Shown: positions 119 to 62,343 of the stretch, piece by piece | Position numbering within the stretch: the first letter of the stretch is position 1 | Layout of the letters: each line of letters begins with the position of its first letter | NCBI GenBank assembly: GCA_030407315.1 | Contig: JALQPE010002906.1 | Location: 21,463 to 85,462, forward strand | Source: Asparagopsis taxiformis | Taxonomy: Eukaryota > Rhodophyta > Florideophyceae > Bonnemaisoniales > Bonnemaisoniaceae | Length of the DNA stretch: 64,000 bases | Direction: 5' to 3' | Position numbers and translations under genes: made by a program | The notes under the pieces: model-generated | Seen by the model: only the letters and a program-made list of their open reading frames with translations | What the model was told of the DNA's origin: nothing | Databases searched by the model: none

Positions 119-730
119 ATGGAAAAACCGGTACATTATTGGCCACCTTCCCTGCGCCGCTGGTTGCAAACTGAAAACCCTCGCGTGATGCGGGCACACG
201 ATTGTGTTGCGAAAAAATTGAGCGTTCGACCATCGCTGATTAAGCATCCAAATGCAGGAAGAGGGCTCTTCGCTGAACAGACATTTAATGTTGGCGACGA
301 AGTATGTGCATACTACGGAACTGTTGTGTACTCTGATATGAGCAAGGAGTCGATGCGGTTCGCGTACGGAGAGGGTCACATGGCGATAACGAAGGAAACA
401 TTCTTGATGTATGCCATCAAGCTGTATGCAACAGCGGAGGACGACGAAAACATCGAGCATCCAATTTGGATTGTTCCGGCTCCGTTCTGTTCGGCGCAGT
501 TCATCAACGACCCGCGGTATTTGCGAGGTGAGGACACTCCGGCGGAAGACACCAGGCGGATGGCCAACGTCGAGTTTGTCGAGAACTACAGCAGCGGTTC
601 GACGGGGAAGAAGCTCAAGGCCAAGGACCTAGAAAATCCGAAGATCATCGTAGTACGTGCAATCCGCGATATCCGTCCAGGGCAGGAGCTCTACGTTCAT
701 TATGGGACAGCGTTTAGAGCATGGAATTAG
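119..730 (+). CDS. SET-domain protein (C-terminal part of a methyltransferase-SET gene)
   Basis: The 203-residue frame has the landmarks of a SET domain, the catalytic fold of protein lysine methyltransferases. A GRGLF motif sits at residues 47-51 and leads into GDEVCAYYG. An FIND/NVEFV pair (128-154) stands where the usual NH/C motif lies. A GQELYVHYG ending (188-196) supplies the C-terminal tyrosine segment. The frame stays open upstream of this ATG to base 20. In the second copy (57849-61033) the same residues follow a DNA methyltransferase domain, so this ATG is probably internal to a longer original protein. The canonical NHS/C residues are replaced by IND, as in divergent protist SET proteins. 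Substrate is unknown. This is the only intact SET copy in the window. Confidence 0.8.
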   Translation: MEKPVHYWPPSLRRWLQTENPRVMRAHDCVAKKLSVRPSLIKHPNAGRGLFAEQTFNVGDEVCAYYGTVVYSDMSKESMRFAYGEGHMAITKETFLMYAIKLYATAEDDENIEHPIWIVPAPFCSAQFINDPRYLRGEDTPAEDTRRMANVEFVENYSSGSTGKKLKAKDLENPKIIVVRAIRDIRPGQELYVHYGTAFRAWN

Positions 731-3679: not shown

Positions 3680-3756
3680 AATTAGTGCAGTAAATGTGAC
3701 GTTGGCTAGAAGGCTTATCATGTAGTACATTATCAATAGAGTGCTGCGATTTAGAT

Positions 3757-6700
3757 TTATTCTTCTTCATTATCATCTGTGAACTGGTAATCAGTGTTGG
3801 TGTAGAAGCGGTTGAGATAGAAACGGTGGTCCGACCAGTGCATTTGTTTCGTAAATGGCTTGACTGGAAAGTTACTTCGTACGATGTGCACGGTGCCAGA
3901 TATAGTAGATGCAGGAATGAGGTCAAACCAAGGACCACCTGCACTGTGGGATGCAGTGTCATTGCTGTCAACGGATCCGTTGTCCGGGTCCCATGTGGAC
4001 CACTTTAAACAAATGCACCCAAGTGATTTTTCCACAGCGGTTTTTGGGGCAAAGCAGGTCATATACTGAACGAAAGCGAGTTCTACAGGTTGAAACAGGT
4101 TTGGAGACTGCAGGCGTACCAGTGCCAGGACGCGCCCTACCCATATGGTTCTGTAGTCATCGGCAGTTCCGGAGATGACGACAAAGGAGTACTGCGATCT
4201 CTTTGCGGGGCCGAATGATGAAGTTGCAAAGACGCGCTGCTGCTTGTGCCTCGACACGTTTGTGGGGCGAAGCATGCCACTGTGCGGGTCAAAGTCGTCG
4301 GCATCTGGGACGTACCCTCCCATGACGTAGGCGGACTTTACCACGGTGACGGAAATGTCCATGTCATGTATTGGAGGGCCTTCTGCCGTGGCGCGCAGTC
4401 TAGCGAGGGTGAGGAACGCTTGTGCAGCTGTGTCACCGAGTTGCTGGAATAGCGTTATGGTGCCAGACGGGAACGAGGAGTTGTGCAGAGGCAAAAGAGT
4501 GGCAGGATCGGGCTGTCCGTCGATATCTGCAACGAGGAGGGTTGCATCGGGCAGCAGGGAGGCAAAGTCGTGCAGTGCAACGGTGAATCCGTCGCGAACG
4601 AGTACTGCACCGTCTGTGGGCGATATCATGCGTGCGTTTCCCAATGTGTTGGATGGGGTGTGACCAGTTGGAGTGGCCAAGGAGAATTCCATGTGGCGAA
4701 TAGTCTCTTCCATGGCTGTGGAGCGCCTTCGAGAGGTTTTCCTATAACTCTGTTTGAACAGAAGATGCGAGTGTTCGTAGGGGCCTGCATCGATGTGTTC
4801 CAGGGCGCCATATCTCTGCAAGTCACCGGGAAGATGGTCAAGAAGATGGAACTTGAAAGTTTTGAGACCTGTGGTGTGGAATGGGCCGAGGGTGGAGAGC
4901 ATTGATTGTTTGAAATAGGAAATGGAGTTCTGGAGGCTTTCGAGTTCGGCGGCAGTCCAGTGCTTGATGTGACCGCGTTTCATGACCCATGCGACGAGGT
5001 CAGAGTATTGCGTGCAGATGGAAGTGAGGGGGGCTGTATCTACTTCGTCACAGCATGTGTCAATGAATGCTGCGATGAAAGGGAACACCATGTCGACATG
5101 GTGATAGTCTTTGGCTGCGAGCATGCCGCGTATGCCGTCCTCTGTGAAGAGGCCGTTCAAATTGGTGCCCTTCTCACCCTTGGAGAAGTCGACATGAAGA
5201 CCGGTGATGTAGTAGTCGCGTTCGATAGCGGACAGAATGCTGTTTGAGCCGGCGAGGATGGATTTTTTCACCTTCTTGAAGGTGCGAGGTGTCCCGGAAT
5301 GGGAGGCAGTGGTGGTGGTGAGGTCTGCGGAGCTGAGGCGGTGGACAATGCACTGTTTGATGAGCTTTGAGATGCCGAGGTGGAGATTGTGCAGAGGCTC
5401 GAAGGAGAAAATGTTGTAGGGGTCTAGGGGACTGTTGGTGGGAAAAAGAGCGGTCGATTCGAGGACAGAGTGTTGTTCGAGGAGGGAGGGAGCTTCGAGC
5501 GGAGCAGTTGTATGCTCCTGAGCGCTCTCTTGGCGTGCAGAGCGTGTATCATCGAGGGAGCGGGGCTGGTGTGACGCGGTGGATTCAAGTTGAGTGGCGG
5601 GGATGTAGCAGCGGTGGCAGGGATGTGTGGTGGTAGTGCTGTTGCGAGTGCATGACAGCTCTTTGGCCTCTGGAAAGTCGCAGCAATAATTGGCTAGGAT
5701 GGGAAAGCATTGGCGGGCAGTTGCAGTGGAGTCTGTGCAGGGGAACCCGGAAGAGAACGCGGTGGATAGGGACGAAAACACTTTTTCGAGTGCTTTATGA
5801 AGAATATCAATTTTGCGAGCGCGACTAGCAGAACTAGAGGTTGTCGGCATTTCATCACCGAACAAGGCGTTGGACGAAGGGTTCACAATGTACGGAAGAT
5901 ACCCGACGATGGTGAGGCCGGTACGGATGCAGTGGCGACGGAGGGGGGCGGAGAAGTTGAGCAGTGTGACGTGTATGGGGTATGCGACGATTGCGGAGCT
6001 CTTGAGGCTTGTGCTGCTCTTGTCGGAGTACACTTGGAGGAGGCCGGCAAAGGATGAAGGTGTGGAATCAGTTTCCTCTGCCCATACGACCTGTGGATCT
6101 TCCGAGAGCTGCACGCGCTGTCTAGTAACCTGGTGCAGCGTTTTCGCGAATTCTGTGTGTAGGGGATGAGAAAATATTGCGGTGCCGTCTGGGGCGGTCT
6201 GTGGGGAGGGGTGGAAGAGAGTATTTTGGTCGTTAGCCAGTGCTAACTGCCTGCGGAGCATGTCGACTGGGTCGCGGAGGTACAGCTGTGCCGAGTACTT
6301 ACCAGTTTTGTCTGGAATGATGTGGCTCTTATAACCTTCGGTGCGGAAATGTGTTTCGACCATGGAAGCGGTAACGTGGCGACATTCTTCTACGGTGCGA
6401 ACGGCGCTGTTGAACTTTTCTAGGGAGAATGCGGGGTCTTGTAGGATAGTGATGACTTCGCTCACGCGGCCAGCGCCGGCCTTGTACTCGAGGGTTGTGA
6501 GACTGGCGGCGAGGGATTGCACGAGGAGGTCTGCGCGGGAGGGGGTTGAGGTTGGTGGCAGTGGAGCGTCACAGGGTGAGTCGCTGGAGGAAGCACGACC
6601 AGATTCTGGGTCTGAGGAGCTGGGTTGCGGGGAATCATGGTCGCCGTTTCGAGCAGGCTCATGGGTGACGGCAGGGACACGAGCGTTGTTGAAATGTTGG

Positions 6701-6798
6701 GGAGAGGGGTTGAAACGGTAGCGACACGTTCGCTCATGCAGCGCGAGCACATAAGCATCTACGCAGTAGTAGAAGCACCCTTCATACTTGCATTCCAT
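3757..6798 (-). CDS. Plavaka-like (CACTA superfamily) transposase
   Basis: An uninterrupted 1013-codon frame. A C2HC zinc finger is at the N terminus (C3, C8, H21, C25). The RNase H-like core shows YSDKSS with Asp259 followed by the AYPIHVTLLN strand and IVGYLPYI, then FPILANYCCDFPEAKEL with Asp374, a CHRC knuckle (394-397) and FEPLHNLHLGISK (467-478). The order and wording match Plavaka-type transposases. A conserved GPYEHSHLLFKQSYRKTSRR block (672-691) ends the recognisable part. About 320 further residues of unknown function follow, longer than I expect for the family. The protein would cut and rejoin transposon ends in the nucleus. A near-identical but frameshifted inverted copy is at 50106-53134. 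I see no missing core residue, so this copy could be functional. Confidence 0.75.
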   Translation of the reverse strand: MECKYEGCFYYCVDAYVLALHERTCRYRFNPSPQHFNNARVPAVTHEPARNGDHDSPQPSSSDPESGRASSSDSPCDAPLPPTSTPSRADLLVQSLAASLTTLEYKAGAGRVSEVITILQDPAFSLEKFNSAVRTVEECRHVTASMVETHFRTEGYKSHIIPDKTGKYSAQLYLRDPVDMLRRQLALANDQNTLFHPSPQTAPDGTAIFSHPLHTEFAKTLHQVTRQRVQLSEDPQVVWAEETDSTPSSFAGLLQVYSDKSSTSLKSSAIVAYPIHVTLLNFSAPLRRHCIRTGLTIVGYLPYIVNPSSNALFGDEMPTTSSSASRARKIDILHKALEKVFSSLSTAFSSGFPCTDSTATARQCFPILANYCCDFPEAKELSCTRNSTTTTHPCHRCYIPATQLESTASHQPRSLDDTRSARQESAQEHTTAPLEAPSLLEQHSVLESTALFPTNSPLDPYNIFSFEPLHNLHLGISKLIKQCIVHRLSSADLTTTTASHSGTPRTFKKVKKSILAGSNSILSAIERDYYITGLHVDFSKGEKGTNLNGLFTEDGIRGMLAAKDYHHVDMVFPFIAAFIDTCCDEVDTAPLTSICTQYSDLVAWVMKRGHIKHWTAAELESLQNSISYFKQSMLSTLGPFHTTGLKTFKFHLLDHLPGDLQRYGALEHIDAGPYEHSHLLFKQSYRKTSRRRSTAMEETIRHMEFSLATPTGHTPSNTLGNARMISPTDGAVLVRDGFTVALHDFASLLPDATLLVADIDGQPDPATLLPLHNSSFPSGTITLFQQLGDTAAQAFLTLARLRATAEGPPIHDMDISVTVVKSAYVMGGYVPDADDFDPHSGMLRPTNVSRHKQQRVFATSSFGPAKRSQYSFVVISGTADDYRTIWVGRVLALVRLQSPNLFQPVELAFVQYMTCFAPKTAVEKSLGCICLKWSTWDPDNGSVDSNDTASHSAGGPWFDLIPASTISGTVHIVRSNFPVKPFTKQMHWSDHRFYLNRFYTNTDYQFTDDNEEE

Positions 6799-19640: not shown

Positions 19641-20395
19641 AGAACTGCTGGAATGGATTGCGTAGCCTATAGAGGAGCAATGTAGTTATATAATAGAGCT
19701 AGAAGCATGCCTCAACAACCTATCTCTCATGCCTCTAGTTCTCCTTCATCATTCCAGTCTTCCTTCCTGTGACGCACCGCGCCTCTGGTGTCACTTCACA
19801 CGCCCCTCCTGTGCATTAAATACCTGTCTACCACTTCCGTATTCTACTCATACCACCACCTTCATTTTACCCCATGCCTACCATCCTATCCTTTACCTTC
19901 TGTCCTTCAGTCCTAGGCTAACCTACTTCATAACCATCGATGTAAGGTGAATATCTAGATTCCTACCTACTTGAGAGTATAGTTTATTATAACGGAAAAC
20001 GGACGGTTTTGTATAGTCAATGTGCTACACAGCACCAGGAGTAGATTTTGCGCACCGATAATCTATGCTTGATATTGGAGAGACCGGCTTCTTGTAGCCT
20101 CGGAAAATGTGCAGGTAGTACCTTTCCAGAGGTCCTGGAGGTGTTCACACCAACTCTAGTCCATTTTAACGAGTTTGAATTTCGACCGCCAGAATCTCTG
20201 TCGTGAGAAAATGGTGGTCGAAATTTACCGTGCTGCTCTCCCAATACTGAACTTTTTAGGTAGTTCAGCCCGGGTGAACAAGACACAGATTGCTCTTCAA
20301 AGCCGCCCGAAGCCGTCGAAACCATCCTTCCACAATGTTCCCGACTTCAAAATTCCTATCTCACCCTTCCCAAAGTGAGAGAGGGACCAAGGTAC
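19641..20395. other. Segment flanking foldback B; member of a three-copy direct repeat
   Basis: A block starting near 19957 and ending at the foldback is paralogous to 21028-21450 and 22350-22742. All three share a GGCACCA..GTAGA(T)..TCTATG core. No gene is seen. Confidence 0.6.
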
Positions 20396-20788
20396 CAGAC
20401 GCTTACAGCTGAGGCAGTTTACCAGGGATGCTTACAGCAAAGTCATCGTTACGATGACTTTGCTGTAAGAAAAGAAAACATTACAGTGGGCGAAGGATTT
20501 TACCGGGTGAAAAAATCACCAAGAATTTTTTTACCGGGTAAAAAATCGTGGCTACTGTAATGAAACGTTTTCTTACAGCAAAGTCATCGTAACGATGACT
20601 TTGCTGTAAGAAAAGGAAACATTACAGTAGGCGAAGAATTTTTACCGGGTAAAAAATCACCAAGAATTTTTTTACCGGGTAAAAAAACGTGCCTGCTGTA
20701 ATGTTTTCTTTTCTTACAGCAAAGTCATCGTAACGATGACTTTGCTGTCAGCACCCGCGGTAAACTGCCTCAGCTGTAAGCGGTCTGG
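20396..20788. repeat. Foldback cluster B (three hairpins)
   Basis: The outer inverted arms (CCAGAC-GCTTACAGCTGAGGCAG and its complement, ending GTCTGG) enclose three 36-39-nt hairpins. Between them lie smaller inverted motifs TTACCGGGTAAAAAA and TGGC/GCCA. The whole block would fold into a multi-branched structure. Confidence 0.85.
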
Positions 20789-21449
20789 CTTCACCCTCTC
20801 TCTCATGTCTCTTGTCTTCCTCATCCCAGCCTATCCCAACCTCCCTTCTATGTCGACTCCGGTGTCACTCCAGCCGACCCTTCAGTGAGTGCAATCCTTC
20901 TCTACCACCGCCATAATCTACTCATACTATCCCCTTCATGTTGCTGCATACCTACCCTCCCATCCTTCCTGATTTTCCTACAATCCTAGGCTAGCCTACT
21001 TACCAACTATGTTGGTATTGAAGGCAGCTAGATTCCTAGTAACTCAAATCTATAGTCTGCTAAAAAGGGCGATTTGGTGTGGTCACTGTGCCACACGGCA
21101 CCAGGAATAGAATCTGGCCACGGATACTCTATGCTTGATCTCAGAGAGAACAGCTGCGCCAATGCTCCGAAAATGTGCTGTCAGTACCTTTCCAGACGTC
21201 CTGGAGGTGCTCATGCCAGCTCTAGTTCATTTTAGGGAGGTTGAGTTTCGACAATCAGAATTTCACTCTTGAGGAAATTGTGTTTGAAATTTTGTGCACT
21301 CCTCCCGCCGTACCAGGCAGGGCACCCAGCCCAGACTGGGTTAGCACGACGCAGAGTGCTCCCCAACACCGCTAACAGCCGTCCAAACCATCCCTCTGCC
21401 ATGTTTTACGGCTTCACAATTCCTTGCTCACCCTTCCCAAGGTGAGGGA
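20789..21449. other. Inter-foldback segment, no gene
   Basis: Second copy of the paralogous flank described at 19641-20395. There is no coding signal. Confidence 0.5.
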
Positions 21450-36800: not shown

Positions 36801-38311
36801 TTCGCTGGACGCGGGTTCGATAACCCCTTCGTTGAGCATCTTCGTGATCTGCTCCTCGGCTATCGTACGTAGAGCCGGACCCTGACGATAGGGCATTGAA
36901 CGTATGGGCCGCGTGCCGGTTCGAGTTCGATTCGATGCTCCGTAGCATTGATTTCGCCGAGGCGTCCGCTCGTCCACATTGACGAATGTGTAGCTAGCAT
37001 CTCGTTGATGCGCTTTCGTAAATCCTCGTCGTCGAGGTGCGACAAATCGATTGTCGACTGCCAATCGTGGCGGGGTCGTTCCCCTTTTCGTTGACCAACG
37101 GGTCTGGCGTTTCGTCGCCCAACCCGTTCGTATTCGTGTCCGCGTCGTCGCGTCGACTAGCGGTAGGTTCAAAACCTTCGCGAGGGCTTCGCCGCCCTCA
37201 CGCTTGAGTGGGACGATTCCCAACGGGGAGCGTACCGCGTACGCAATCGTTGCGCCTTTCGGCAATTCGCGGTCCTTCTTCGTGAAGTTCGACACGATAA
37301 TAGAGAACGTCTCTCTGGGTCCTACGTCGACCACTCCGTTGGCTATGCGCAGCCCATGCCGGAATTGCACCGACGCTTTCGGTTCGAGGAACACGAGTCC
37401 GGTCGCATCCGTCGTCACGTTGACGGTCCGTTGCGACATCGCCGGTACACGCGTATACTTCGTCAGGCGAACCGAGAACGTTCGGCTCGGCCGATTCGAG
37501 GCCGCGTTACGCTCGCGGCGTTTCGGGTGTTCCACGTTTGGATTCGTCTCTTCCCCCTCCTCGTACGGAGTCGTCGTATCGCCCTCCGCGATAATGGGTA
37601 TCGTATCCCCCCGATGGAGGTCGATTGTCTGCGCTCGACAGCGTATAGCATCGACATGCTTCGACATGAACGACGTGCCCATTATAACGGGGACGCCAGC
37701 GTGTTGGCTACGAAGAATTTTACGCGGAACAGCGAGTTCCCCAGCCTGACACGAAGCAGGATGGCGCCTTCGATAGGCAAACGTCGCCCGTTGGCGTCTC
37801 CGAGCTTCGGTAGCTCTTCGTCACGTAGACAGCGGTCGACCCAGTCGTAGGGTAGTAAACTTGTTCGTATCAAGTTGTAGCCGCTGCACGTATCCATCGC
37901 GATGGTAATCGCCCTCATCACGTTGAGGTCTAGTCCGATCGTTCCGGATACGATATAATGCTTCGACGCAAGTAGGCACGTATGCCCGTCGAGGACCAAC
38001 GGTTCGGTCCTGACCGGCGCGCGGTCTACGTCTTCGCTAGCGGTTCGTCGCTTCACCGTATGAGCCCGTATGGCTTCTTTTGCGTCGACACGCTTCGTAT
38101 AAGCCGCGTGCTTGGCTTTCTCGCGCTCGGAAGCGTCGTGCTTCCGGTAGCGCGTCTCGCTCGTCTGCGAGGCTTCCTCTTCGTGTGAGGTTCGTTCGTC
38201 CCGTCGGACTTCGTTTCTTCCCCCACGTCGGGTGTCGTGTGACTCGAGTTGGCCTTCGCGGCCGTGAGCTTTACGTAACTCTCGTTCATCGGTGAGCCTG
38301 CGGAGGACCAA
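33850..38311 (-). pseudogene. Gypsy pol: protease, RT, RNase H, integrase, chromodomain (several frameshifts)
   Basis: In minus-strand order there is first an aspartic protease segment with MDTCSGYNLI, where the usual DTGS reads DTCS. The reverse transcriptase has GVIEPASSEWASPIVLVPKKDGSLR, RMPFGLRNAPATFQ and a YLDD active site. RNase H follows (FMIDTDASAYQLGATL, WSKTLNETERGYSATERE). The integrase has an HHCC finger (HHHVLAGH, CVGC) and a core of Asp323, Asp383 and Glu419 (numbering from 35862). Finally an SH3-like module and a C-terminal chromodomain (VVDDLLNHRV to FLVKWVGYRNPTWEP) close the protein. Single-base frame changes occur near 37690, 36655, 36100, 35955 and 35755. The chromodomain identifies a chromovirus-like element, expected to bind methylated histone at integration sites. 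Confidence 0.92.
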
Positions 38312-38372
38312 TCATCGACGTCGGTCGTCCCCCTTTCACGTAAGGGTTCAGGCGATGTGGGTGGCTCGTGAC

Positions 38373-40777
38373 CTACATCGCCTGGTCGTTTTCCGGCGCG
38401 GGGCCGTTCGACACGTCGTCGTCGTGAGCCCACGAAGCTCGTTCGTCATCGTGACTCGTTTCCACCTCGAGTGGTGTTTCGTCAGCGGAGGTCGTCACGT
38501 AGACTCCGCTGCGGCCATTACGCTGGCCATTTCGTTCGTTCGCCCACGGGCGGGGGTCACGTCGGTCATTACGAAAGTCGCCGCGGCGCCTGTCGAAGGG
38601 CCTTCCCCCGTCACGATTGGGGTTTCGGAGTATCGTAGGCGGCGTGCCGTACCTCCGCGGGTTCACGTTCCCTCGCTCATCAGGTCGTTCCTGGTTACGC
38701 TTGGCCATTCGTTGGCGGAAGTACTCAGCCTGACGTGGGTTGCTCTTCACGTGGAAGAGGTAGTACTTGTACGCGAAAAAGATCCGTTGATCTGGCGTCA
38801 GACGCGGACACGTAAACGTCGAGTGGCCATCTTCGCGGCATGACCAACACGACAGCGTCCAGTAATCATTCGGGATTACGGAGTGCGCCAATTGCGTCTG
38901 CTCGCTCGTGAGCTTCGGCACGTCCTCGCATGGACGGTTCAATCGAGCTTCGAGCTCGTCCGGCTTTTCGTTTGCCGTTTTCGTATCGTTGGGCGGCGGC
39001 CCGTTCGTGAAGAGGATCGCCTCCAAATTCTCGGCAACGTGAGCCGCAGCGAGCGACACGTCGTCGTCGTCCCTCGCGGGGATGTTCGGGTTACCATCGT
39101 GGTAACTGGGCTCGCTAGCCCGTTCATTACGTAAGTACGCGGACTCATCGTAGTCCGCGAACTTCCTCGACTCGTGGTCGGAAATAGCCAACGTAGGCTT
39201 CACCGGAAACCGCACTTTCGGTTTCGCGGCTGACGCGACAGCTGCCGTACGTGCACGGAAGGTCGTTCCTTCGGCCGTCGCCAATCGTCTCACAACGGTG
39301 AGGTCGTTCCTCTCTCGTTCGGGGAGTGACCGGAGTCGTTCCGTCACGGCTGCCCGCGTCGAGGGCAGCAAACCACGTACGTAGTGGTGAACGAGGAGTC
39401 GATCCGTAAACACGTAGTTGCACGCCCGCGTGGCGGTGTCGAGTCTATCAGCGTACTGATTCTCGTCCTCGTTAGGACTCTGCGTGATCATCGTGACCTT
39501 TTCGTAGGCCTCCTGCAGCACGTCGTCTTGCAGGTATCGTTTAATCAACGCGTTGATTACGTGAGGCCACGAGAACCTCTTCGTCGGATCAGTCGTGATC
39601 ACGCCAGTCGTACACTGGGAATCGTAGAACCGTCGGGCGTCCCCTTCGAGGAAGAAGTGCAGCGCACGTACTGCCACTCCCTCGCACACTCCGAGTGTGC
39701 TGAACCCATCACGTATTTGGGCGAGGAATCCGAGTAACGTAATCGGATTCCGGCCGGAGAACGGCTTTAACGTAGGGAAAAGTCCCTCCAGCTCACGTTT
39801 GAGCTTATGTACGCTTTGACTCTCGTTCACGTAGAGATGTTCACGTACATCGTTAAGTCGGTACATGCGGTACGACACCACGTTCGCAAATGCGTCGAGC
39901 ATTGTCGTGTGCTCTGCCAACGCGTGGCAAACGGGTCCGAGGGCGTTCCCTGGTAAGCGTACCGCGTCGGCACGTTCGTTTTCGTGGACTCGCGTGTCCG
40001 TCGTGCCGAACGTACCCAGCCACGGAATGTACGTTTCACGTGGCGGGGGAGCTCTCGTATCGAATTGCGCAGCTCGTGCTGCGTCCGCCGACCGCGCGTG
40101 GTCTGGCGTATCGTTAAAACGTAATTGCCTTCGTGGCGTCTCGTTGGGGTTGGCGATGGCTCGTTGCACTGTCGCCCCCCTTCCGTACGTTGTCGGGGTC
40201 GTCGGACCGGGTGTTGGGGGTATCCTCCCGGAACGGCCGGGGAGGATTGCGAGTTATAGGCGCGCGAGCCTTCTTCGTAATTCGGATCGCTTCCGCTCGG
40301 CGGAGCGGAACGTCCGGCGACGATTTCGTTGAATACTACGACAAACGAGTCGAGTCTTCCCTCCACGGCGGAGAGGCGGTTTCGTAAATCTTCGTTTTCC
40401 CGTTCGAGGGTCGCTGAGCGTTCACGTAACGCACGAGCTTCGCGCTCCGAGACTCCGAGTCTCTGCCTTACGGCTTCGTCGACGGCCGCGTCGCTCGCCC
40501 TTTCGATGTGACCTCGAAGGTCTTCGTACACTACGCGTAGTGCCGTGGGAGTCACGTTCCCTTCGTTGAGCTGACCGCGCGTTGCGGGGTCCATACTCAC
40601 GGACTCAAACGGGCTTACCGTACGTGGTAGCTGGCCGATCGCCTCGATATCCGGCGGGATAGATCGATCAGTCGCGAAGATCGCTTCTGCTGACAAGGCC
40701 ACGTCGGCTTCGGCGTCCGCTGACGTTGGCAACGGTTGCCTGGGCGACGCGCTGGAATTCGACACAGCGTAATTCAT
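38373..40777 (-). pseudogene. Gypsy gag (one frameshift)
   Basis: The frame opens at 40777 with an acidic, coiled-coil N-terminal region (REARALRERSATLERENEDL), shifts at a run of six C near 40175, and continues to 38373, for about 800 codons. The central part has the retrotransposon gag pattern (LKPFSGRNPITLLGFLAQIRDGF, HFFLEGDARRFYDS, QYADRLDTATRACNYVF). A CCHC knuckle, CWSCREDGHSTFTC, follows, then an Arg/Asn/Gly-rich tail. It forms the capsid and binds RNA. Pol begins near or just after its end. Confidence 0.85.
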
Positions 40778-47258: not shown

Positions 47259-47282
47259 CATAACGTCTGTGTTTTCGGAAGT

Positions 47283-47845
47283 GGACGCGGACGTCCAGTC
47301 TCTCTAGTACGGGTCCTAGTCGGCCCCGAGATTTACTAGAACAAATGAACGTCCGCGTCCAAAAAAAAAATAAAAATTTTTTGGATGCGGACGTCCACTT
47401 TCTATAGTACATATGGCGGAATACTAGGGCCCGACATCCACTTTCTCTAGTACATATGGCGGAATACTAGGACCCGACATCCACTTTCTCTAGTACGTTT
47501 GGCGGAATACTAGGACCCGACATCCACTTTCTCTAGTACATATGGCGGAATTACTAGGACCGACATCCACTTTCTCTAGTACGTTTGGCGGATACTAGGA
47601 CTCGACCGACATCGAATCCAATTTCTCTAGTACATATGGCGGAATACTAGGACCCGACATCCACTTTTCTCTAGTACATATGGCGGAAATACTAGGACCC
47701 GACATCCACTTTCTCTAGTACATATGGCGGAATACTAGGACCCGACATCCACTTTCTTATAGTACATATGGCGGAATACTAGGACCCGACATCCACTTTC
47801 TCTAGTACATATGGCGGAATACTAGGACCCGACATCCAGTATACA
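47283..47845 (+). repeat. 43-bp minisatellite
   Basis: About eleven units of a 43-bp sequence containing TCTAGTACATATGGCGGAAT and ACTAGGACCCGACATCCACT, with scattered variants (TACGTTTGG). The first part (47283-47400) is more diverged and includes GCGGACGTCCA. Confidence 0.88.
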
Positions 47846-50105: not shown

Positions 50106-53100
50106 ATGGAATGCAAGTATGAAGGGTGCTTCTACTACTGCGTAGATGCTTATGCGCTCGCGCTGCATGAGCGACGTGTCGCTACCCGTTTCAACCCCTC
50201 TCCCCAACATTTCACAACGCTCGTGTCCCTGCCGTCACCCATGAGCCTGCTCGAACGGCGACCATGATTCCCCGCAACCCAGCTCCCCAGACCCAGAATC
50301 TGGTCGTGCTTCCTCCAGCGACTCACCCTGTGACGCTTCACTGCCACCAACCTCAACCCCCTCCCGCGCAGACCTCCTCGTGCAATCCCTCGCCGCCAGT
50401 CTCACACCCTCGAGTACAAGGCCGGCGCTGGCCGCGTGAGCGAAGTCATCACCATCCTACAAGACCCCGCATTCTCCCTAGAAAAGTTCAACAGCGCCGT
50501 TCGCACCGTAGAAGAATGTCGCCACGTTACCGCTTCCATGGTCGAAACACATTTCCGCACCGAAGGTTACAAGAGCCACATCATTCCAACAAAAAACTGG
50601 TAAGTACTCGGCACAGCTGTACCTCCGCGACCCAGTCGACATGCTCCGCAGGCAGTTAGCACTGGCTAACGACCAAAATACTCTCTTCCACCCCTCCCAC
50701 AGACCGCCCCAGACGGCACGCGCAATATTTTCTCATCCCCTACACACAGAATTCGCGAAAACGCTGCACCAGGTTACTAGACAGCGCGTGCAGCTCTCGG
50801 AAGATCCACAGGTCGTATGGGCAGAGGAAAATGATCCCACCGCTTCCTCCTTTGCCGGCCTCCTCAAGTGTACTCCGACAAGAGCAGCACAAGCCTCAAG
50901 AGCTCCGCAATCGTCGCATACCCCATACACGTCACACTGCTCAACTTCTCCGCCCCCTCCGTCGCCACTGCATCCGTACCGGCCTCACCATCGTCGGGTA
51001 TCTTCCGTACATTGTTAACCCTTCGTCCAACGCCTTGTTCGGTGATGAAATGCCGACAACCTCTAGTTCTGCTAGTCGCGCTCGCAAAATTGATATTCTT
51101 CATAAAGCACTCGAAAAAGTGTTTTCGTCCCTATCCACCGCGTTCTCTTCCGGGTTCCCCTGCCAGACTCCACTGCAACTGCCCGCCAATGCTTTCCCAT
51201 CCTAGCCAATTATTGCTGCGACTTTCCAGAGGCCAAAGAGCTCTCATGCACTCGCAACAGCACTACCACCACACATCCCTGCCACCGCTGCTACATCCCC
51301 GCCACTCAACTTGAATCCAGCGCGCCACACCAGCCCCGCTCCCTCGATGATACACGCTCTGCACGCCAAGAGAGCGCTCAGGAGCATACACTGCTCCGCT
51401 CGAAGCTCTCTCCCTCCTCGAACAACACTCTGTCCTCGAATCGACCGCTTTTTACCCACCAACAGTCCCCTAGACCCCTACACATTTTCTCCTTCGAGCC
51501 TCTGCACAATCTCCACCTCGGCATCTCAAAGCTCATCAAACAGTGCATTGTCCACCGCCTCAGCTCCCCAGACCTCACCACCACTGCCTCCCATTCCGGG
51601 ACACCTCGCACCTTCAAGAAGGTGAAAAAATCCATCCTCGCCGGCTCAAACAGCATTCTGTCCGCTATCGAACGCGACTACTACATCACCGGTCTTCATG
51701 TCGACTTCTCCAAGGGTGAGAAGGGCACCAATTTGAACGGCCTCTTCACGGAGGACGGCATACGCGGCATGCTCGCAGCCAAAGACTATCACCATGTCGA
51801 CATGGTGTTCCCTTTCATCGCAGCATTCATTGACACATGCTGTGACGAAGTAGATACAGCCCCCCTCACTTCCATCTGCACGCAATACTCTGACCTCGTC
51901 GCATGGGTCATGAAACGCGGTCGCATCAAGCACTGGACTGCCGCCGAACTAGAAAGCCTCCAGAACTCCATTTCCTATTTCAAACAATCAATGCTCTCCA
52001 CCCTCGGCCCATTCCACACCACAGGTCTCAAAACTTTCAAGTTCCATCTTCTAGACCATCTTCCCGGTGACTTGCAGAGATATGGCGCCCTGGAACACAT
52101 TGATGCAGGCCCCTACGAACACTCGCATCTTCTGTTCAAACAGAGTTATAGGAAAACCTCTCGAAGGCGCTCCACAGCCATGGAGAAGACTATTCGCCAC
52201 ATGGAATTCTCCTTGGCCACTCCAACTGGTCATACCCCATCGACACATTGGGAAACGCGCACGCATGATATCGCCCACAGACGGTGCAGTACTCGTTCGC
52301 GACGGATTCACCGTTGCACTGCACGACTTTGCCTCCCTGCTGCCCGATGCAACCCTCCTCGTTGCAGATATCGACGGACAGCCCGATCCTGCCACTCTTT
52401 TGCCGCTGCACAACTCCTCGTTCCCGTCTGGCACCATAACGCTATTCCAGCAACTCGGTGACACAGCTGCACAAGCGTTCCTCACCCTCGCTAGACTGCG
52501 CGCCACGGCAGAAGGCCCTCCAATACATGACATGGACATTTCCGTCACCGTGGTAAAGTCCGCCTACGTCATGGGAGGGTACGTCCCAGATGCCGACGAC
52601 TTTGACCCGCACAGTGGCATGCTTCGCCCCACAAACGTGTCGAGGCACAAGCAGCAGCGCGTCTTTGCAACTTCATCGTTCGGCCCCGCAAAGAGATCGC
52701 AGTACTCCTTTGTCGTCATCTCCGGAACTGCCGATGACTACAGAACCATATGGGTAGGGCGCGTCCTGGCACTGGTACGCCTGCAGTCTCCAAACCTGTT
52801 TCAACCTGTAGAACTCGCTTTCGTTCAGTATATGACCTGCTTTGCCCAAAAACCGCTGTGGAAAATCACTTGGGTGCATTTGTTTAAAGTGGTCCACATG
52901 GGACCCGGACAACGGATCCGTTGACAGCAATGACACTGCATCCCACAGTGCAGGTGGTCCTTGGTTTGACCTCATTCCTGCATCTACTATATCTGGCACC
53001 GTGCACATCGTACGAAGTAACTTTCCAGTCAAGCCATTTACGAAACAATGCACTGGTCGGACCACCGTTTCTATCTCAACCGCTTCTACACCAACACTGA

Positions 53101-53134
53101 TTACCAATTCACAGATGATAATGAAGAAGAATAA
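50106..53134 (+). pseudogene. Plavaka-like transposase, inverted second copy (frameshifted)
   Basis: Near-identical to the transposase at 3757-6798 but on the opposite strand and broken by many one- or two-base indels (for example near 50215, 50590, 50700, 50860, 51170, 52250 and 52840). Long pieces remain open, such as 51622-52240, which spans the lineage-typical YRKTSRR block. Most differences are indels rather than substitutions, so either recent decay or a low-quality consensus could explain them. Confidence 0.85.
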
Positions 53135-53211: not shown

Positions 53212-55483
53212 TCAACCATCCTCCATTACGCCAAAACCGTTATCAGCAGTGGCTGCATGGCGCCGCTCCATGCCCCCATACTGTGGGGCATGATTTCGAC
53301 ATTCAGGTTTGCAGTCAGGTGTCCAGCATATGGGTCAACGACGAAAAGTTCTGCGCCATTAGTCCTTGCGCAATCACACAATCCATTACAGCACCGAGGT
53401 TTGGTAATATGCGATTGAATCCAATCCTCGCACTAGAACAAGTGATGAGCAGCGGTTTACATCATCAACGACATGAACAATTCCAGACCCCTCTCCGCTT
53501 TGCCACACTTCAACAGCCTCTCTCGTCACAGTACGGCTTGCAAACACATGCCGTGACTGTGCACTAGTCCGCTGTTCGCTCTCGACAACGTCCGTTTCTT
53601 CCCTTGCTTGCGAGCCTTGGAGACAAGACATGCAGTACACCACCATACCACTAATTGCTGAAAAGCTACCCCCACATATTGACTGTACCGCCTTGTAAAC
53701 TCCTCTGCCGTGCACCTCCTTTCCCCTTCGGTTCATCCAAACACTCCACAGTAGTCACTAGCCAAGCATCCAGGCGCGCCAGCGTTAGTATGCTCGTCTC
53801 TATGTCCATTACTTGTTCTGGTCGTATCGAATAACCCCTGAAGATGTCCAGCACATTCACAGCTACTCGGTTGTTAAACCATGCATCACCATTCACTTCC
53901 ATTTCGAAGCTGTCAGGAACCAAGCCTTTGCTGTATCGCAGCTCTGAGAACGGTGCCGTTCGCCACCTCCCCATATCCAAATCACCGTTACTTTCCCGTT
54001 TCAAAAGCTTCTCAGACGCTTCGCGCTTTTTTCCTCTCGCTCGTCCATCTCAGCTCGCGTCGTCAGCATCGTGCATCTAGACATTAATTTCGTGTACCCC
54101 AGCGACCGAACCATCTGTCCCTCGCATTACGCTTTCCGTGCACTCATCACGTCGGACAGTTTCTGCGTCACCTTCACTTTCAATTCCTTGCTCCCCGCCA
54201 CAGCCTCTTGACAGCACACACCTGCCCTCTCCTCGGAAAACACATCACACCACGGACTTTGACGCAGTACGTGTCGCACCAAGTCATTCAGCAGATCACT
54301 CTCGTCCCTGTACGAAGGTTATACCACTGCAGATTCTTGATGATATAGCCCGGAGGGGTAGCAATATATCCTACACCGTTTTTCGCTCCAAAGTGCCCCT
54401 TCTACCGGCTCTACCTCGATGGTACGTCCAGTCCAACGTCTCTGCGTTTGTTCCGCTATAGGGTCCAGCTCCATAGTCTCGTTCTTGCACCACTTTGTCA
54501 GGTTTCCCTCAACCGCCCTAAGAACTCCAAGGTATTTCACAGGAATGGCTTTCTGTATTTCGACTTACCGCCACCGTGATCACTGATTCTACCTGTTCTC
54601 GCAATTGCAGTAAGGCTGGCATTTTCCGCCTGCAGAGTCTTCACCTTAGCCTCCAACGCAACAATCTCCGTGGTGAGCGCCTTGTTTGCTATGTCCTGGC
54701 TAAACACTTTTTTTTCCAGCTCCGCGATCTTCTTCTTCTGCGCATTGATGCGACTCGCCATTAAATCGATGGATTCCGGCGGATGCAACCTCTCTGCCCT
54801 CACCGTCCCCCATCTCCCACGCTATCGGGAATATGATGTCCTCCATCGCCAATAGCCTGACGTCGCGGGGGCGTTACGCGCATATTTGGCACCAATGACA
54901 GTCTGTTGTGACGAGGCCCGCACTCGCGCTGCTCTCTCCCCTCAGTACCACCTGACCGCCGATGATAGTTGGCATCCTGTGAACGTTGCTCAGAAACAAC
55001 ATCCCTTGCCGCTATCCTCGGGTCCCTGACTGCATTACCTGCTGGGGCTGATGTACTCGGCATAGTTGGCGCAGTGGGGGTCACAGCCTCCAGTGTCTCG
55101 GGAACCCCCGGCTGGGACTCCGTCTGCAGCACCTCCGCATCTGCCAACCCGGGAGGAACTACCTTTGCCATAGCACTCTGCGCAATTCCAACATGTTTTG
55201 AGCCACTATCATGTCATCATCATGATGTTCACTGTCCTGCGAGCACGCTTGCCTCGGTCAAGCCCCATCTCTCTCCGCGCCGTTCCTCCTTCCTCACTTT
55301 CTCGCTGCGGATCCCCAGTTCTGCGCCGGTCCGTCTTGCGACTACCGACCGCGGTTCAATGCTGCCGGTAGGCCCAGACCGCTTCTTCGCACGGGATTGT
55401 CGGGCACTCGATACAGCAGCTGCTGACCGGGTTTTCTGGAGGCCCGGAGGCTTTGGAGCTTTCTTCGCAATACGCGGCGGCAT
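53212..55483 (-). pseudogene. Coiled-coil accessory gene, inverted second copy
   Basis: Counterpart of 1395-3679. Here the A8 run (complement at 54708-54715) keeps the frame through the coiled coil, and CAA replaces the left copy's TAA. Other indels (near 55230, 54790, 54545, 54325, 54035 and 53690) break it instead. Together the two copies define the full-length gene. Confidence 0.8.
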
Positions 55484-55715: not shown

Positions 55716-55912
55716 CCTGATTTGAATTAAAATTTGGGCTATTCTCAAACATGCACATGTGAACATGTTTTTGAGATGGGGGTGTGCCGTACGGCACAAT
55801 CGACCGCCCAAATCGATGTTTTTTGCAATATTTTTTTGTGCCCGAAATTTTAGAATTTCTGGGCTGGCCAGCAATGCAATCGAGCTGGACATCCACCGGA
55901 CGTCCATTTCAG
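55716..55912 (-). repeat. Palindrome-bearing flank repeat, copy 2
   Basis: Same unit as 963-1156, reversed. GTGCCGTACGGCAC is intact; the long hairpin lacks two A on one side. Confidence 0.85.
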
Positions 55913-56096
55913 GTTGGTCTGAGAGAGCGGGCGGGACCATGATGGAACAAGGACCAAGACCTGTCCCTGGCGTATTGAGCCTGAAATTGACCCTTCGTCA
56001 GACGCCATTTAGCCTTACAGTTGGTGCTTACAGAAGCCAGTGATGACCCCGCTCGGGCGGCGGTCGGTTCCTGGGGCCGTTGTGGCCAATTAGACC

Positions 56097-56255
56097 CCTG
56101 ATTTGAATTAAAATTTGGGCTATTCTCAAAAACATGCACATGTGAACATGTTTTTGAAATGGGGGTGCCGTACGGCACAATCGCGCCGCCCCAAATCAAG
56201 GTTTTTTACAATATTTTTGCTGCCCGAAATTCTACAATTTCTGGGCTGGCCAGTA
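56097..56255 (-). repeat. Palindrome-bearing flank repeat, copy 3
   Basis: Reversed unit about 380 bp beyond copy 2, with both palindromes recognisable. The intervening DNA (55913-56096) matches that between copies 5 and 6. Confidence 0.85.
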
Positions 56256-56714
56256 ATGCATTAGCTATGTGCTCTAACCGATTCTAACAAGCAGAAAGAA
56301 TCCTCTCCTTCAGGACGATGCTCTCGAATTGAGTGCAATGCAACGGACTCCCTCCAGGAGAACGACAAAGCATCGTCTTTTGCAAGACATTTTCGTACGA
56401 AAAATAATCGAAACACATATTTGACTTTAACCTAACAGCTATCGCGAGCACCGTACTCAGCTAAATTCCTCTGTAATTTCCTTCCTCCAACCAATCAATA
56501 GCGCTTGGTCACAGGCTTAAAAGCCTTCCACTATTTGTCCTATCCATCGAAGAGGGTTCGATCCAGGCCTTGATGGGTGTGGAACCCGAGAACTTGAAAA
56601 TGGAACATATTGCGACAGAGATGAGATGTCATTCTCTTTCGTTTACTTTTTTAACAGATTCTAAACGTCTACGCAGCGGAACGAACCCAATGTCGTCCGT
56701 CCGTTTTCAGCCCG

Positions 56715-57050
56715 GTGAGATGTTTTTTGCCATTAACGGAGGTGGAGGCGGCTATGGAGGAAGCCTGCGGTTCGGGTATTCTTTCCATTACGGAGGTGGA
56801 GGTGGCGGCTTTGAGGAAGCCTGGAGAACATGTGAGATGTCAGTACCCATGGATCACAAGAAAACATGTAGAGTCCAGTTGGATATTGTTGCCATTAACG
56901 GAGGCGGAGGAGGCGGCTACGGTGGAGCCTGGAGAGCATGTGAGATGTCAGTACCCATGGATCACATGAAGAACATGTTGAGGTGCGGTTCGGATATTCT
57001 TTCCATTAACGGAGGCGGAGGAGGCGGCTACGGTGGAAGCCTGGAGAAGA
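56715..57050 (+). repeat. Gly-rich tandem repeat region
   Basis: Four units with GGAGG(T/C)GGAGG-type cores separated by TGTGAGATGTCAGTACCCAT-like spacers. An open frame at 56570-57124 would encode repeated INGGGGGGYGG blocks. It has no other support, so I treat it as a repeat that may or may not be translated. Confidence 0.6.
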
Positions 57051-57349
57051 ATAGAATAGTCCTATACCCATGGATCACAAGTAGACGTAGTTGGGCTCCT
57101 TTTCGAAGCCCATTCGTCTCTTGAATAAATTAGCACCCAAATCATATACGATTGCCGAGTTGACACCCCGTATGTCTCGTTGGTAGAAATAGCAGGGGTT
57201 CCACCACTCAGCTGGCGGGAAGTAGTTACTGATTATATGAGATATGGCTTAGCTCCCGCCAAACCGATAGCTCTGGGCTCAGGTTCTCCAAATGTGGTTA
57301 TACGAATGTGTTTGACATTGTAGAAGACGATATCTGCATCCTGCTTTGA

Positions 57350-57500
57350 ATTAATTTGGGCTATTCTCAAAAACATGCACATGTGAACATGTTTTTGAGA
57401 TGGGGGGTGTGCCGTACGGCACAATCGACCGCCGAAATCGATGTTTTTTGCAATTTTTTCTGCCCGAAATTGTAGAATTTCTGGGCTGGCCAGCAATGCA
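57350..57500 (-). repeat. Palindrome-bearing flank repeat, copy 4
   Basis: The reversed unit closest to the methyltransferase-SET gene on its upstream side. It forms an inverted pair with copy 5 (61262-61453) on the downstream side. Confidence 0.85.
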
Positions 57501-57848: not shown

Positions 57849-60800
57849 ATGACGAATAAGCGCAGGCGCAACAGCAATCCGATCGTTGACGACGCAACCG
57901 TGCCAATTCTGCGCGAACCCGCTAGCCCTTGGGAGGATTCTAGTGACATGGGTACACGTCGAAACGTAGGTCGCGCCGCCCGCGAAACTACTCTCGCTGG
58001 CAAAGACTTCCTCCGCCTCTTGCTGGATTTATTCGCCCACTCAAGTTTTCGCAGACTTGACGGACAAGCCGGGAGGTTTCACATACGCGGACCTTGGCGC
58101 TTGGGTTGCGCAGGGCACGGAAGAACAATTTGTGGCGCTGCAAGGTCGACTCAGCATGTCCTTCAGCGGTCGTTCGAAGAATGCTGGAGTCGAGGCGGAT
58201 GTTGCCGAAATCGTCATGGCAGAGATGAACGTTGAGCGAGCCAAGCAGATTGTTCGTCTGGCATTACCCATTGCCGAGTTTTCAACAGGATGAGCGTATC
58301 GGGCAATGGGTTGAGCACTGCATCCTTTCTGGGATCGTGCCGCAGACCTTCCTTATTGATGTAACATGCTTCCTTCGCCACTACAGGCGCCGCAGCGCGG
58401 GGAACCAAGCGCCTTCGTTCTTGCTCCACCGGAAACGTTCGAGGTTGATGTATTTCCAAGCGTTGTCTATCATCCGAAATCACAACAAGAACCTGCCGCG
58501 TCGCCGAATAGGAGATGCGGCCGAAGAGGGGACGAAGCCGCACGCGTCCCAGCCCATCGGAAAAGCACTAATCGAGCTTGTTACGTGGTTCAAGTTTTAT
58601 ACCATGCTTGGACCGATGTGGCCTACGCCGCAAAGTTTTCCAGCTTCGAAGAGTTGATGGCGCCGTACATCATTTTCGACAGCAGTGAGCATTGGTTTGA
58701 CGTGCTCGATGAAAGGTCTATTCGCACCGATGGAGCAGAAGCTAGATCTCTACCACAACAAAGCTCCCCTATCTCATCCTGATGGATTGGTGGAAAAGTA
58801 GAGACAAGAACCAGTGCGCAGCACAGTGCATTTAGGGACCTTGTGAGGAAGTTCTTCGACCGGTTGCAGTTTCTTATCGTCAACCCGGACCTGTACACCT
58901 GGCCGGAGTCCGACCGCTGGGGGGCACTGGAAATATACTTCTCAAGCGGAAATCCGGACAAGCTGCCAGCGTATTTTGACACCCTCGACGAAGACGTTAT
59001 GGCTGTCCTCCGCCCGGCACCACAAGCCGCGGACGCAGAAAAGGTCCCCAAGCCGGTTGATGACACTCCCACTCGTCGCAACACAGGAGGGAGAGGTTTG
59101 GTTCCGTCGACAAGACACAACCAGGCTTCAACTTGGACCTGGGAGGACCAGTCTTACTGCCCAAGGGCCGTCTCCCCCGTCACCGTCACCCCATGCGACA
59201 GAAGAGCAGGAAAGTGAAGGGCAGGCTCTCGCAAAGGACTTTCTTTCGAAAATGAGTCAGTATTGCCGGGTGTACGACGTCCTTTCGAAGATTTGGTCAG
59301 TGCCGACGAGAGCCGAGAACACGTGCCCATCACGGGCAACGTTCAGCTCATTCTGACTGATCCGCCCTACAATGTTCGTCGTAAGAGGAACGATTCCAAC
59401 TCTTCGTACGACAGGCTAACTGCAGAAGATATGCAAGCTAGCATCGAAGTGTTTGACGAGCTGTTGCGCCCCGGTGGCCACGGCATCGTGTTCTGCTCGG
59501 TTTTGCAGTTCTACGAATGGTTTTCCATTACTTGGAAACGTACAAAGGACCGCAGTCAGAAGGCCCAACCGATACTGCTGCCAGTGATGACGGGTCGGAT
59601 GAAGAAGAGGTTACGTCCATGAATTCGGACTCCGAAGCATCGCAGCACAGTGGCGAGAAAGTGCGGATGAGGAGGAGGACGAGGAGGAGGAGGACGTCGT
59701 TCGGAATTCAGTTTTCCTTCGTTGACGAGGTACCTCTGTTGTTTGTCCGACTACCTGGGCCCTCTATCAAATGCCGGGGCGGAAGAGGTACCAACGCATG
59801 AACATGGCAGAGGTCGCTATCCACTTCTGGAGCGAGGTGTTCCGTTCAAGACCGGAAGCGAGATGGTGGCCTATAGGAACCACGGATACATGGACGGCAC
59901 GTACCCGGCGTGGTGCAACGTCACCATCAATATGCCCGCCATCGATTCGAATGAGATGGTGTGGCGAACAAGGAGCACAACCGGTGCTACGGTCAGAGTT
60001 CGTGCAGAGCAGAAGAGCGTCGCTCTCATGATGGAGTTGATCAGCCAGCATTCACAGCCTGGTGATATTGTGTGTCGATCCATTCTCTGGCACTTTCGCA
60101 ACGGGAAAAGCAGCTATGAGCTTGCCTGAGCACCGTGTTTTCGTCGGCAGTGACATGGACAAATTGTGTGTGGTACGATCGCTTCCAAAGCTGTGTGCAG
60201 TCATGTCACGTGTAATCTTTCAAACAACACTGACATGAGGGTCACGACAGAAGCGAAACAGAGTGCTGAGAAGTTCTTGGCGTCCCCCTCTGTCACGATG
60301 CGTACGCAGAGGGAACGCAGGATCATCGAACCCCCACCTGGCCTTCCCCTGTACCGAGGTTCCCGAAATATATTCGGCAGTACCTCTGGCAGCTGTGCCC
60401 GAGTCGATTGCGTCGCGCGAGCACATGGAGAAACCGGTACATTATTGGCCACCTTCCCTGCGCCGCTGGTTGCAAACTGAAAACCCTCGCGTGATGCGGG
60501 CACACGATTGTGTTGCGAAAAATTGAGCGTTTCGACATCGCTGATTAAGCATCCAAATGCAGGAAGAGGGCTCTTCGCTGAACAGACATTTAATGTTGGT
60601 GACGAAGTATGTGCATACTACGGAACTGTTGTGTACTCTGATATGAGCAAGGAGTCGATGAGGTTCGCGTACGGAGAGGGCACATGGCGATAACGAAGGA
60701 AACATTCTTGATGTATGCTATCAGCTGTATGCAACAGCGGAGGACGACGAAAACATCGAGCATCCAATTTGGATTGTTCCGGCTCCGTTCTGTCGGCGGC

Positions 60801-61033
60801 GCAGTTCATCACGACCGCGGTATTTGCGAGGTGAGGACACTCCGGCGGAAGACACCAGGCGATGGCCAACGTCGAGTTTGTCGAGAACTACAGCAGCGGT
60901 TCGACGGGGAAGAAGCTCAAGGCGAAGGACCTAGAAAATCCGAAGATCATTGTAGTACGTGCAATCCGCGATATCCGTCCGGGGCAGGAGCTCTACGTTC
61001 ATTATGGGACAGCGTTTTAGAGCATGGAATTAG
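57849..61033 (+). pseudogene. DNA methyltransferase (beta-class, DPPY) fused to a SET domain; frameshifted
   Basis: From an ATG at 57849 the product has an unrecognised helical N-terminal half (about 500 residues, for example LAGKDFLRLLLDLFAH and AEMNVERAKQIVRLALPIAEF). A DNA methyltransferase follows. Motif IV is ILTDPPYNV (DPPY at 59359-59370), then LLRPGGHGIVFC. A TRD-like insert with an acidic stretch comes next, then QHSQPGDIVC, motif I DPFSGTFATG (60077-60106) and VFVGSDMD. Motif IV before motif I is the beta order; DPPY is usual for N6-adenine enzymes. About 70 residues later the frame enters the same SET domain as 119-730. Single-base frame changes occur near 58040, 58280, 58390, 58790, 59150, 59250, 59520, 59780, 60072, 60230, 60353 and through the SET part. 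Since the frames always resume in the next domain, I infer one ancestral fusion. Confidence 0.7.
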
Positions 61034-61261: not shown

Positions 61262-61453
61262 TGGACGCCCGGTGGATGTCCAGCTCAGTTGCATTGCTGT
61301 CCAGCCCAGAAATTCTACAATTCAGGGCAGAAAAAATATTGCAAAAAAATCGATTTCAGCGGGTCGATTGTGCCGTACGGCACACCCCCATCTCAAAAAC
61401 ATGTTCACATGTGCATGTTTTTGAGAATAGCCCAAATTTTAATTCAAATCAGG
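61262..61453 (+). repeat. Palindrome-bearing flank repeat, copy 5
   Basis: Directly downstream of the second SET domain, equivalent in position to copy 1 behind the first. Both palindromes are intact. Confidence 0.87.
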
Positions 61454-61649
61454 GTGTCTAATTTGGCCACAACGGCCCCAGGAACCGACCGCCGCCCCGA
61501 GTGGGGTTGTCACTGGCTTCTGTAAGCACTAACTGTAAGGCTAAATGGCGTCTGACAAAGGGTCAATTTCAGGCTCAATACGCCAGGGACAGGTCTTGGT
61601 CCTTGTTCCATCATGGTCCCACCCCACTCTCTCACGACCAACCTGAAAT

Positions 61650-61840
61650 GCACGTCCGGTGGATGTCCAGCTCGATTGCACTGCTGGCCAGCCCGGAAAT
61701 TCTAAAATTTCGGGCACAAAAAAATTGTAAAAAATCAACGATTTCAGCGGGTCGTTTGTGCCGTACGGCACACCCCATTTCAAAAACATGTTCACATGTG
61801 CATGTTTTTGAGAATAGCCCAAATTTTAATTCAAATCAGG
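61650..61840 (+). repeat. Palindrome-bearing flank repeat, copy 6
   Basis: Same orientation, 387 bp after copy 5. The linker includes GGCCACAACGGCCCCAGGAA, shared with the linker beside copy 3. Confidence 0.87.
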
Positions 61841-62149
61841 GTGTCTAATTTGGCCACAACGGCCCCAGGAACCGGCCGCCGCCCCGAGCGGGGTCAATCA
61901 CTGGCTTCTGTAAGCACTAACTGTGAGGCTAAATGGCGCCGGAAGATGGGCCGATTGCAGGCTTCAAGCCTAAGTTATGCTAGGAGAAATCTTCTTCCGT
62001 GTTTTCATGGTCCCGCCTTACTCCCTCAACAGAAACACTACTCACCCATCACGTTACTCATATTCCGTGCACTTTATATTAGTAGTGAACCCGCCTGCTT
62101 AGTTGCTGCAATGCGTGGATGTAGGCAGCACCACACGACCAACTGAAAT

Positions 62150-62343
62150 GGACGTCCGGTGGATGTCCATCCCAGATGCACTGCTGGCCAGCCCAAAATT
62201 CTAAAATTTCGGGCACAAAAAATCTTGCAAAAAATCACGATTTGGGCGGGTCGATTGTCGTGCCGTACGGCACCCCCCCATCTCAAAAACATGTTCACAT
62301 GTGCATGTTTTTGGGAATAGCCCAAATTTTAACTCAAATCAGG
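62150..62343 (+). repeat. Palindrome-bearing flank repeat, copy 7
   Basis: Same orientation, about 500 bp after copy 6. GTGCCGTACGGCAC is intact. A tail similar to 1157-1205 (GGTGCTCGC, GACAGCTGTAATT) follows. Confidence 0.85.

Follow-up and report, generated by a model that had tools for sequence, protein, structure and literature searches.

A DNA methyltransferase-SET fusion gene carried by a Plavaka-type transposon in the red alga Asparagopsis taxiformis

Described systems and the Asparagopsis taxiformis locus

Plavaka transposons carrying TET in fungi, as well as Harbinger/MuDR transposons carrying SET, the SET ones in oomycetes, have been described (Kojima, 2025, PMC12730594). In Amoebidium, the section on "Plavaka giant repeats" reports large elements made of intron-poor genes and flanked by a Plavaka transposase, with relatives in dinoflagellates and red algae (Sarre et al., 2024, PMC11244446), and in bdelloid rotifers N4CMT is presented as a host gene that represses transposons for the host (Rodriguez et al., 2022, PMC8885841). 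Here, we analyzed a stretch of 64,000 nucleotides of the red alga Asparagopsis taxiformis (the window, C2777:21463-85462, which reaches to the end of its contig; the genome comprises 3,156 contigs totalling 141.5 Mb). A first-pass annotation had proposed that this window contains a DNA methyltransferase fused to a SET domain in a repeat-flanked, probably mobile locus. We interpret the locus as a copy, damaged or misread, of a Plavaka-type DNA transposon about 23 kb long, and intact copies of its methyltransferase-SET gene encode one product of 1,065 amino acids (aa).

This element resembles the giant repeats of Amoebidium in being a large element with a Plavaka transposase, but the main cargo of the latter is tyrosine recombinases, and no methyltransferase-SET protein is mentioned in the section describing them (PMC11244446). 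The transposons described by Kojima also carry an epigenetic enzyme of their own, TET or SET singly, whereas a DNA methyltransferase and a SET domain are present here in one protein (PMC12730594). In the description of N4CMT, an SPPY motif is combined with a chromodomain (a reader) in a host gene, in contrast to DPPY with SET (a writer) in a transposon (PMC8885841). Pfam detected no chromodomain in the intact methyltransferase-SET open reading frame (ORF). No DNA methyltransferase-SET fusion in a transposon was found in the open-licence literature, which was surveyed mostly at title level, and a mention in Iyer et al. (2014, 2016) is possible. The kinds of parts are known, and the combination of a DNA methyltransferase with SET in a transposon appears to be new. 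Some mobile DNA may mark both DNA and chromatin with a single tool, and the fusion offers a natural test of whether one tool, tied to one address, can write DNA and protein marks. It could also represent a route of bacterial-type methyltransferases into eukaryotes.

The methyltransferase-SET gene and its relatives

In the window copy, the methyltransferase and SET signals fell into separate short frames. The DPPY piece (window:59218-59622, PF01555, E 7.2e-4) and the motif-I piece (window:60041-60238, PF01555, E 0.023) were under the curated cut-off, the SET piece (window:60835-61020, PF00856, E 2.8e-5) was over it, and 7 further window pieces gave no relevant family in the same domain scan. 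The DPPY, motif I and SET signals were all found where the first-pass annotation had placed them, on one strand, and its reading of frames that resume domain by domain was borne out by a single 1,065-aa ORF in 7 intact copies. These copies (L002-L008) are 100% identical across 3,198 bp. The 5 broken copies among the 12 compared are the window copy, with 7 substitutions and 26 indel events relative to L002, and those of C424, C2587, C481 and C346, with 2, 6, 5 and 27 indel events, respectively. Because indels outnumber substitutions in the window copy and in C346, the comparison points to read or assembly error, decay being the less likely cause; the frame breaks belong to the window copy. If the repeat were decayed or mis-assembled and yielded no working product, this would account for these indels and for the broken copies, but 7 of the 12 carry the same intact sequence and the fusion recurs in homologues that are 22-37% identical to it, which makes this explanation extremely improbable. 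Chance or artefact was ruled out by the intact identical copies and the distant fusions. The reading of two genes as one was rejected as well, the ORF being continuous in the same 7 copies and in the closest database protein, P0001.

All 40 scored candidates of the genome matched at 97-100%, and at least 16 of them shared the top score after the self-match, which suggests recent multiplication. As 40 of 1,251 first-look candidates were scored, these copy counts are lower bounds, and part of the identical copies could be duplicate contigs.

The intact product has a conserved N-domain (its profile spans residues 40-399), a PF01555 region at residues 501-774 (E 3.4e-15, 57 bits, cut-off 26.7) and, separated from it by a linker, a PF00856 region at residues 909-1058 (E 1e-6, 29.5 bits, cut-off 22.4). 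Its match in PHROGs was phrog_67, a DNA methyltransferase (E 8.1e-17). Motif IV (DPPY, 507-510) lies before motif I (DPFSGT, 746-751), which is the beta-class order already claimed from the broken copy. The structure search with a predicted model gave the methyltransferase part a CcrM-like fold, so that the DPPY segment does have the fold expected of it. For the SET part, Foldseek retrieved SUV420H1 (E 2.2e-5, with a low target TM-score of 0.39), and there was no SET structural match among the matches listed by VIA-align. A first structure model built from 7 sequences had a mean predicted local distance difference test (pLDDT) score of 47.7, and its top Foldseek ranks were M1.HpyAVI and SET8.

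In an alignment of 33 rows (P0029 and P0033, both without SET, included), identity to L002 was 22-37%, and 98% for P0001. The Asp and Gly of motif I were kept in all rows, and motif IV was DPPY in 24, DPPF in 4 and otherwise in 5. L002 has the SET Tyr and Asn residues that we take to be catalytic from known motifs; the Asn positions were kept in 29 and 30 of the 33 rows, and the Tyr in 26, with 4 gaps. The methyltransferase part is a predicted beta-class amino-methyltransferase, most likely acting on adenine N6 in DNA. As for the idea that one protein could write both DNA and histone marks, the intact fusion, its domains, its motifs and the methyltransferase fold stood up, and both activities, the target base and the target lysine are predicted.

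Two protein searches (7 and 48 rows) yielded 53 different proteins. A SET profile, built from seven members that are themselves among the 53 scored, matched 31 of them, 30 of which also matched both methyltransferase halves. The 22 proteins without SET fell into three sets: six fusion relatives, the metagenomic proteins P0039-P0046 (eight) and a further eight that are distant methyltransferases, P0047-P0054. Five of the six fusion relatives (P0029, P0030, P0033, P0036, P0038) are short, cut or split, and the sixth, P0037 of Pyropia yezoensis, ends without a SET match. In a midpoint-rooted tree of 48 methyltransferase domains (P0031, P0038, P0045, P0050 and P0053 left out; long branches flagged), 42 rows came together in a single group (100/99), of which 30 have SET and 12 lack it; among these 12, seven rows from P0039-P0046 grouped with one another (100/100). 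The SET label requires 7 changes on the tree, several SET-less rows being cut short. Judged by these comparisons, the fusion is kept over deep divergence, and the two domains are not always encoded by separate genes elsewhere.

The nearest SET-less relatives, P0039-P0046, have a C-terminal methyltransferase and, in 7 of 8, a ParB-like motif; a SET match was found in 0/8. Their methyltransferases (P0045 left out) group with the fusion clade and their middle part matches the fusion N-domain, but the DG.HR motif is on the same chain in 7/8 of them, versus 0/31 SET fusions.

A virus was examined as source of the fusion and rejected. The viral-contig scan with the 7-row alignment gave 79 loci over query residues 497-813 and none over the SET part, the scan with a SET-less alignment gave at least 44 loci, in the methyltransferase region only, and in BFVD, among the matches listed, methyltransferases (Pandoravirus, E 3.7e-10) were separate from SET proteins (Feldmannia virus, E 6.5e-6). 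A close prokaryotic source was likewise discarded: in the genome-contig scan, the best 80 of 102 loci were 21-28% identical, mostly over the methyltransferase.

The transposon, its repeats and a possible mechanism

Two whole copies of the element were recovered, C503:61780-84936 (23,157 bp) and C436:158329-181715 (23,387 bp), which we consider separate insertions because their flanks differ. In both, the 35-bp terminal repeats show 2 differences between ends. The window copy begins at the 47263 repeat and runs off the contig, its other end being beyond the contig end (Table 1). The order transposase (+), 761-aa ORF (-), methyltransferase-SET gene (+), 1,310-aa ORF (+) was the same in all 4 four-gene stretches (C424, C436, C503, window), and it agreed for three genes in C481 and for two in C2587 and in C346. 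A further match to PF18759 was obtained at L011:7556-9646 (E 6.6e-15), and the 761-aa ORF matched coiled-coil families only, all under their cut-offs. With a Plavaka transposase, 35-bp terminal inverted repeats and multiple copies, the locus is mobile in kind, as had been supposed. Plavaka transposons are characterized by a target duplication of 2-3 bp; the candidate here is TA, which flanks both whole copies if the ends are CGTCTG..CAGACG, and three single ends lack a preceding TA. The termini are ACGTCTG (or CGTCTG), whereas those given for fungal PlavakaA/PlavakaB are TGT..ACA or CATCA..TGATG (PMC12730594); because of this difference, the element was not filed under these groups. The C476 copy (L013-L015) is disrupted: its 1,310-aa ORF is split and its transposase reversed, a pattern such as a nested insertion or an inversion might leave.

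The flanking repeats noticed at first pass proved to be real: blocks lying at about 55.7-57.5 kb recur in inverted orientation at about 61.2-62.3 kb. The element has ten units in three clusters, before the methyltransferase-SET gene, between this gene and the 1,310-aa ORF, and after the latter. Blocks of 50 and 24 columns were invariant in 10/10 units, versus 141/397 aligned columns overall, the ten aligned units having been picked by the palindrome itself. When the 50-bp block was searched alone (at most 10 substitutions), the same ten were recovered without a single substitution, and in every one the exact palindrome TGTGCCGTACGGCACA came after the block. The element contained this palindrome 10 times, and about 72.5 kb of sequence outside it contained none; the window had 5 exact occurrences and 1 with a mismatch, versus 0 in 100 shuffles. 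It was present in 23 of 231 loci, all of them stretches of this genome. Selection on a predicted binding site would be the simpler reading of the invariant blocks, since the flanks have diverged; gene conversion could also homogenize them.

Several minor observations concern these repeats. The 16-bp palindrome occurs once (10187-10202) in the viral contig L232 (14,130 bases), its only exact viral-contig match. The 50-bp invariant block contains a hairpin-like AAAAACATG...CATGTTTTT, and the C503 copy (L010, L011) has a second palindrome, GCTGGCCAGC, with 8 occurrences inside the element and none elsewhere in the sequence compared. Between two repeat units lies a 108-bp tandem repeat (window 56766-57048) with glycine-rich stretches in one frame.

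The search gave one relative of the 1,310-aa ORF, P0008 (E 9.9e-159), with 27% identity across the best-matching 29% of the query. The ORF has a DGLHR motif at residue 324 and gave no Pfam, PHROGs or NCBIfam match. In one-against-one hhalign comparisons, the stretch upstream of DGLHR matched the first part of P0039-P0044-type proteins (probability 80, E 1.4e-5, 33 columns), and the N-domain of the methyltransferase-SET protein matched their middle (probability 85, E 5.8e-6, 122 columns). At its C-terminal head, the 1,310-aa ORF shares 50% identity with P0008, including an HND...H...R pattern, which we take to resemble that of 2-oxoglutarate dioxygenases; this head had no match in the Pfam, PDB-profile or NCBIfam libraries. 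The two transposon genes may correspond to the two parts of what was a single ParB-like/middle/methyltransferase protein, a new head having been added at the C-terminus of each.

We favor, with a probability of roughly one half, the reading that the methyltransferase-SET protein is the element's own two-headed writer, guided to the repeat cores and shielding the element genes from host silencing. Binding of the cores, which are about 75 bp long and repeated around both genes, would fall to the N-domain, to the ParB-like protein encoded next to it, or to both. The methyltransferase part would mark element DNA at the cores, the SET domain would methylate lysine on local histones or on another bound protein, and both marks would jointly hold the element genes permissive against host silencing. 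We infer both activities, the target base, the target lysine, the core binding and the anti-silencing outcome. Anti-silencing was preferred because the element seems to be multiplying, because N6-methyladenine is described as accompanying permissive chromatin marked by trimethylated lysine 4 of histone H3 across eukaryotes (PMC12695648), and because transposon-borne TET was read likewise (PMC12730594).

Several points weigh against this reading. Nothing in the data distinguishes anti-silencing from self-silencing. Under self-silencing, or copy control, the main rival, the writer would repress the element's own genes and limit host damage, as bdelloid N4CMT does for the host; we hold it unlikely, given the recent multiplication that the at least 16 near-identical copies with a shared top score suggest, and given that the gene belongs to the element and not to the host. 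The SET subfamily is ambiguous, as the sequence profile put KMT2B/KMT2A first (E 2.4e-4, 9.6e-4) and structure SUV420H1. The His of the NHxC motif is the usual residue in SET domains, but Asp replaces it in L002 and in 26/33 rows, so SET activity was not taken for granted. Motif IV is altered in 5/33 members (DPPQ, YPPY, APPQ, DPPL, DRPF). This last point, with the second SET Asn kept in 30/33, would suit a pseudoenzyme scaffold, in which the methyltransferase part would not methylate DNA and would serve as a DNA-binding module bringing SET to the element. Such a scaffold seems very unlikely, since the copies of this genome keep DPPY and motif I, 28/33 members have DPP[YF], and the fold is CcrM-like. 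Pfam ParB models matched neither the 1,310-aa ORF nor P0039, P0041 or P0043, so that it is the motif, together with the profile match, on which the label "ParB-like" is based.

The position of the repeats bears on another possibility, that of a transposition cofactor. Subterminal repeats are bound by element proteins in CACTA elements, and here too the protein and the cores could serve excision or replication by marking the ends or binding subterminal repeats, with a methyl mark telling new from old copies. One cluster does sit past the ParB-like ORF, before the far end is reached (element 19826-21106 of 23,157), but two of the three are between genes in mid-element and not at the ends, and we find this role distinctly unlikely.

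A wider version of the favored two-headed writer, tentative and rather doubtful at present, would be a complete self-addressed epigenetic system. The ParB-like protein would load on the parS-sized 16-bp palindrome, spread as ParB does and recruit the DNA and histone-lysine writer, while its dioxygenase-like head would edit chromatin or DNA. In this view, the two genes would descend from one ancestral ParB-methyltransferase protein that came apart, and both would have acquired a chromatin head. The ParB-like protein and the palindrome form a predicted compact targeting module that is testable in vitro. If true, this would be a transposon of a new design, in which a segregation-type module that binds DNA directs one protein coupling the writing of DNA and histone marks.

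Other features of the window

Table 1. Coordinates of the element features in the window.
Feature	Position	Strand	Basis or remark
Second element copy (rearranged, at the left of the window): SET end of its gene	119..730	+	98.9% identical over 710 bp at 21-730
Intact 1,013-aa Plavaka transposase ORF, second element copy	3757..6798	-	PF18759, E 3.5e-25
Outer terminal inverted repeat of the copy with the studied gene	47263..47297	+	35-bp repeat also at both ends of the C503 and C436 copies, at most 5 substitutions
43-bp minisatellite just inside the inverted repeat	47390..47838		Tandem Repeats Finder, 10.2 copies
Plavaka-type transposase gene, broken here	50106..53134	+	98.2% identical to window:3757-6798
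761-aa coiled-coil ORF, broken here	53212..55483	-	98.7% identical to intact L011:5193-7478
Upstream cluster, three repeat units with the 16-bp palindrome	55783..57423		Palindromes at 55783, 56164 (one mismatch) and 57408
Methyltransferase-SET gene, broken copy of the 1,065-aa ORF	57849..61033	+	Domain matches, copy comparison
Downstream cluster, three units, opposite orientation	61369..62310		Exact palindromes at 61369 and 61757; altered third unit near 62260
1,310-aa ORF, 5' part with ParB-like stretch, cut by contig end	62689..64000	+	97.4% identical to intact L010:4004-7936

In the second element copy (window 1-7704, L151:5643-8000), the methyltransferase-SET part is joined, through a repeat that both share, to a transposase arm in inverted orientation, and the gene is split by an insertion of about 615 bp with a 6-bp duplication. 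The long ORFs at window 10357-13108 and 33850-39902 presumably belong to Copia and chromodomain Gypsy retroelements, respectively, which they resemble; the latter lies in a GC-rich block (about 55-62%).
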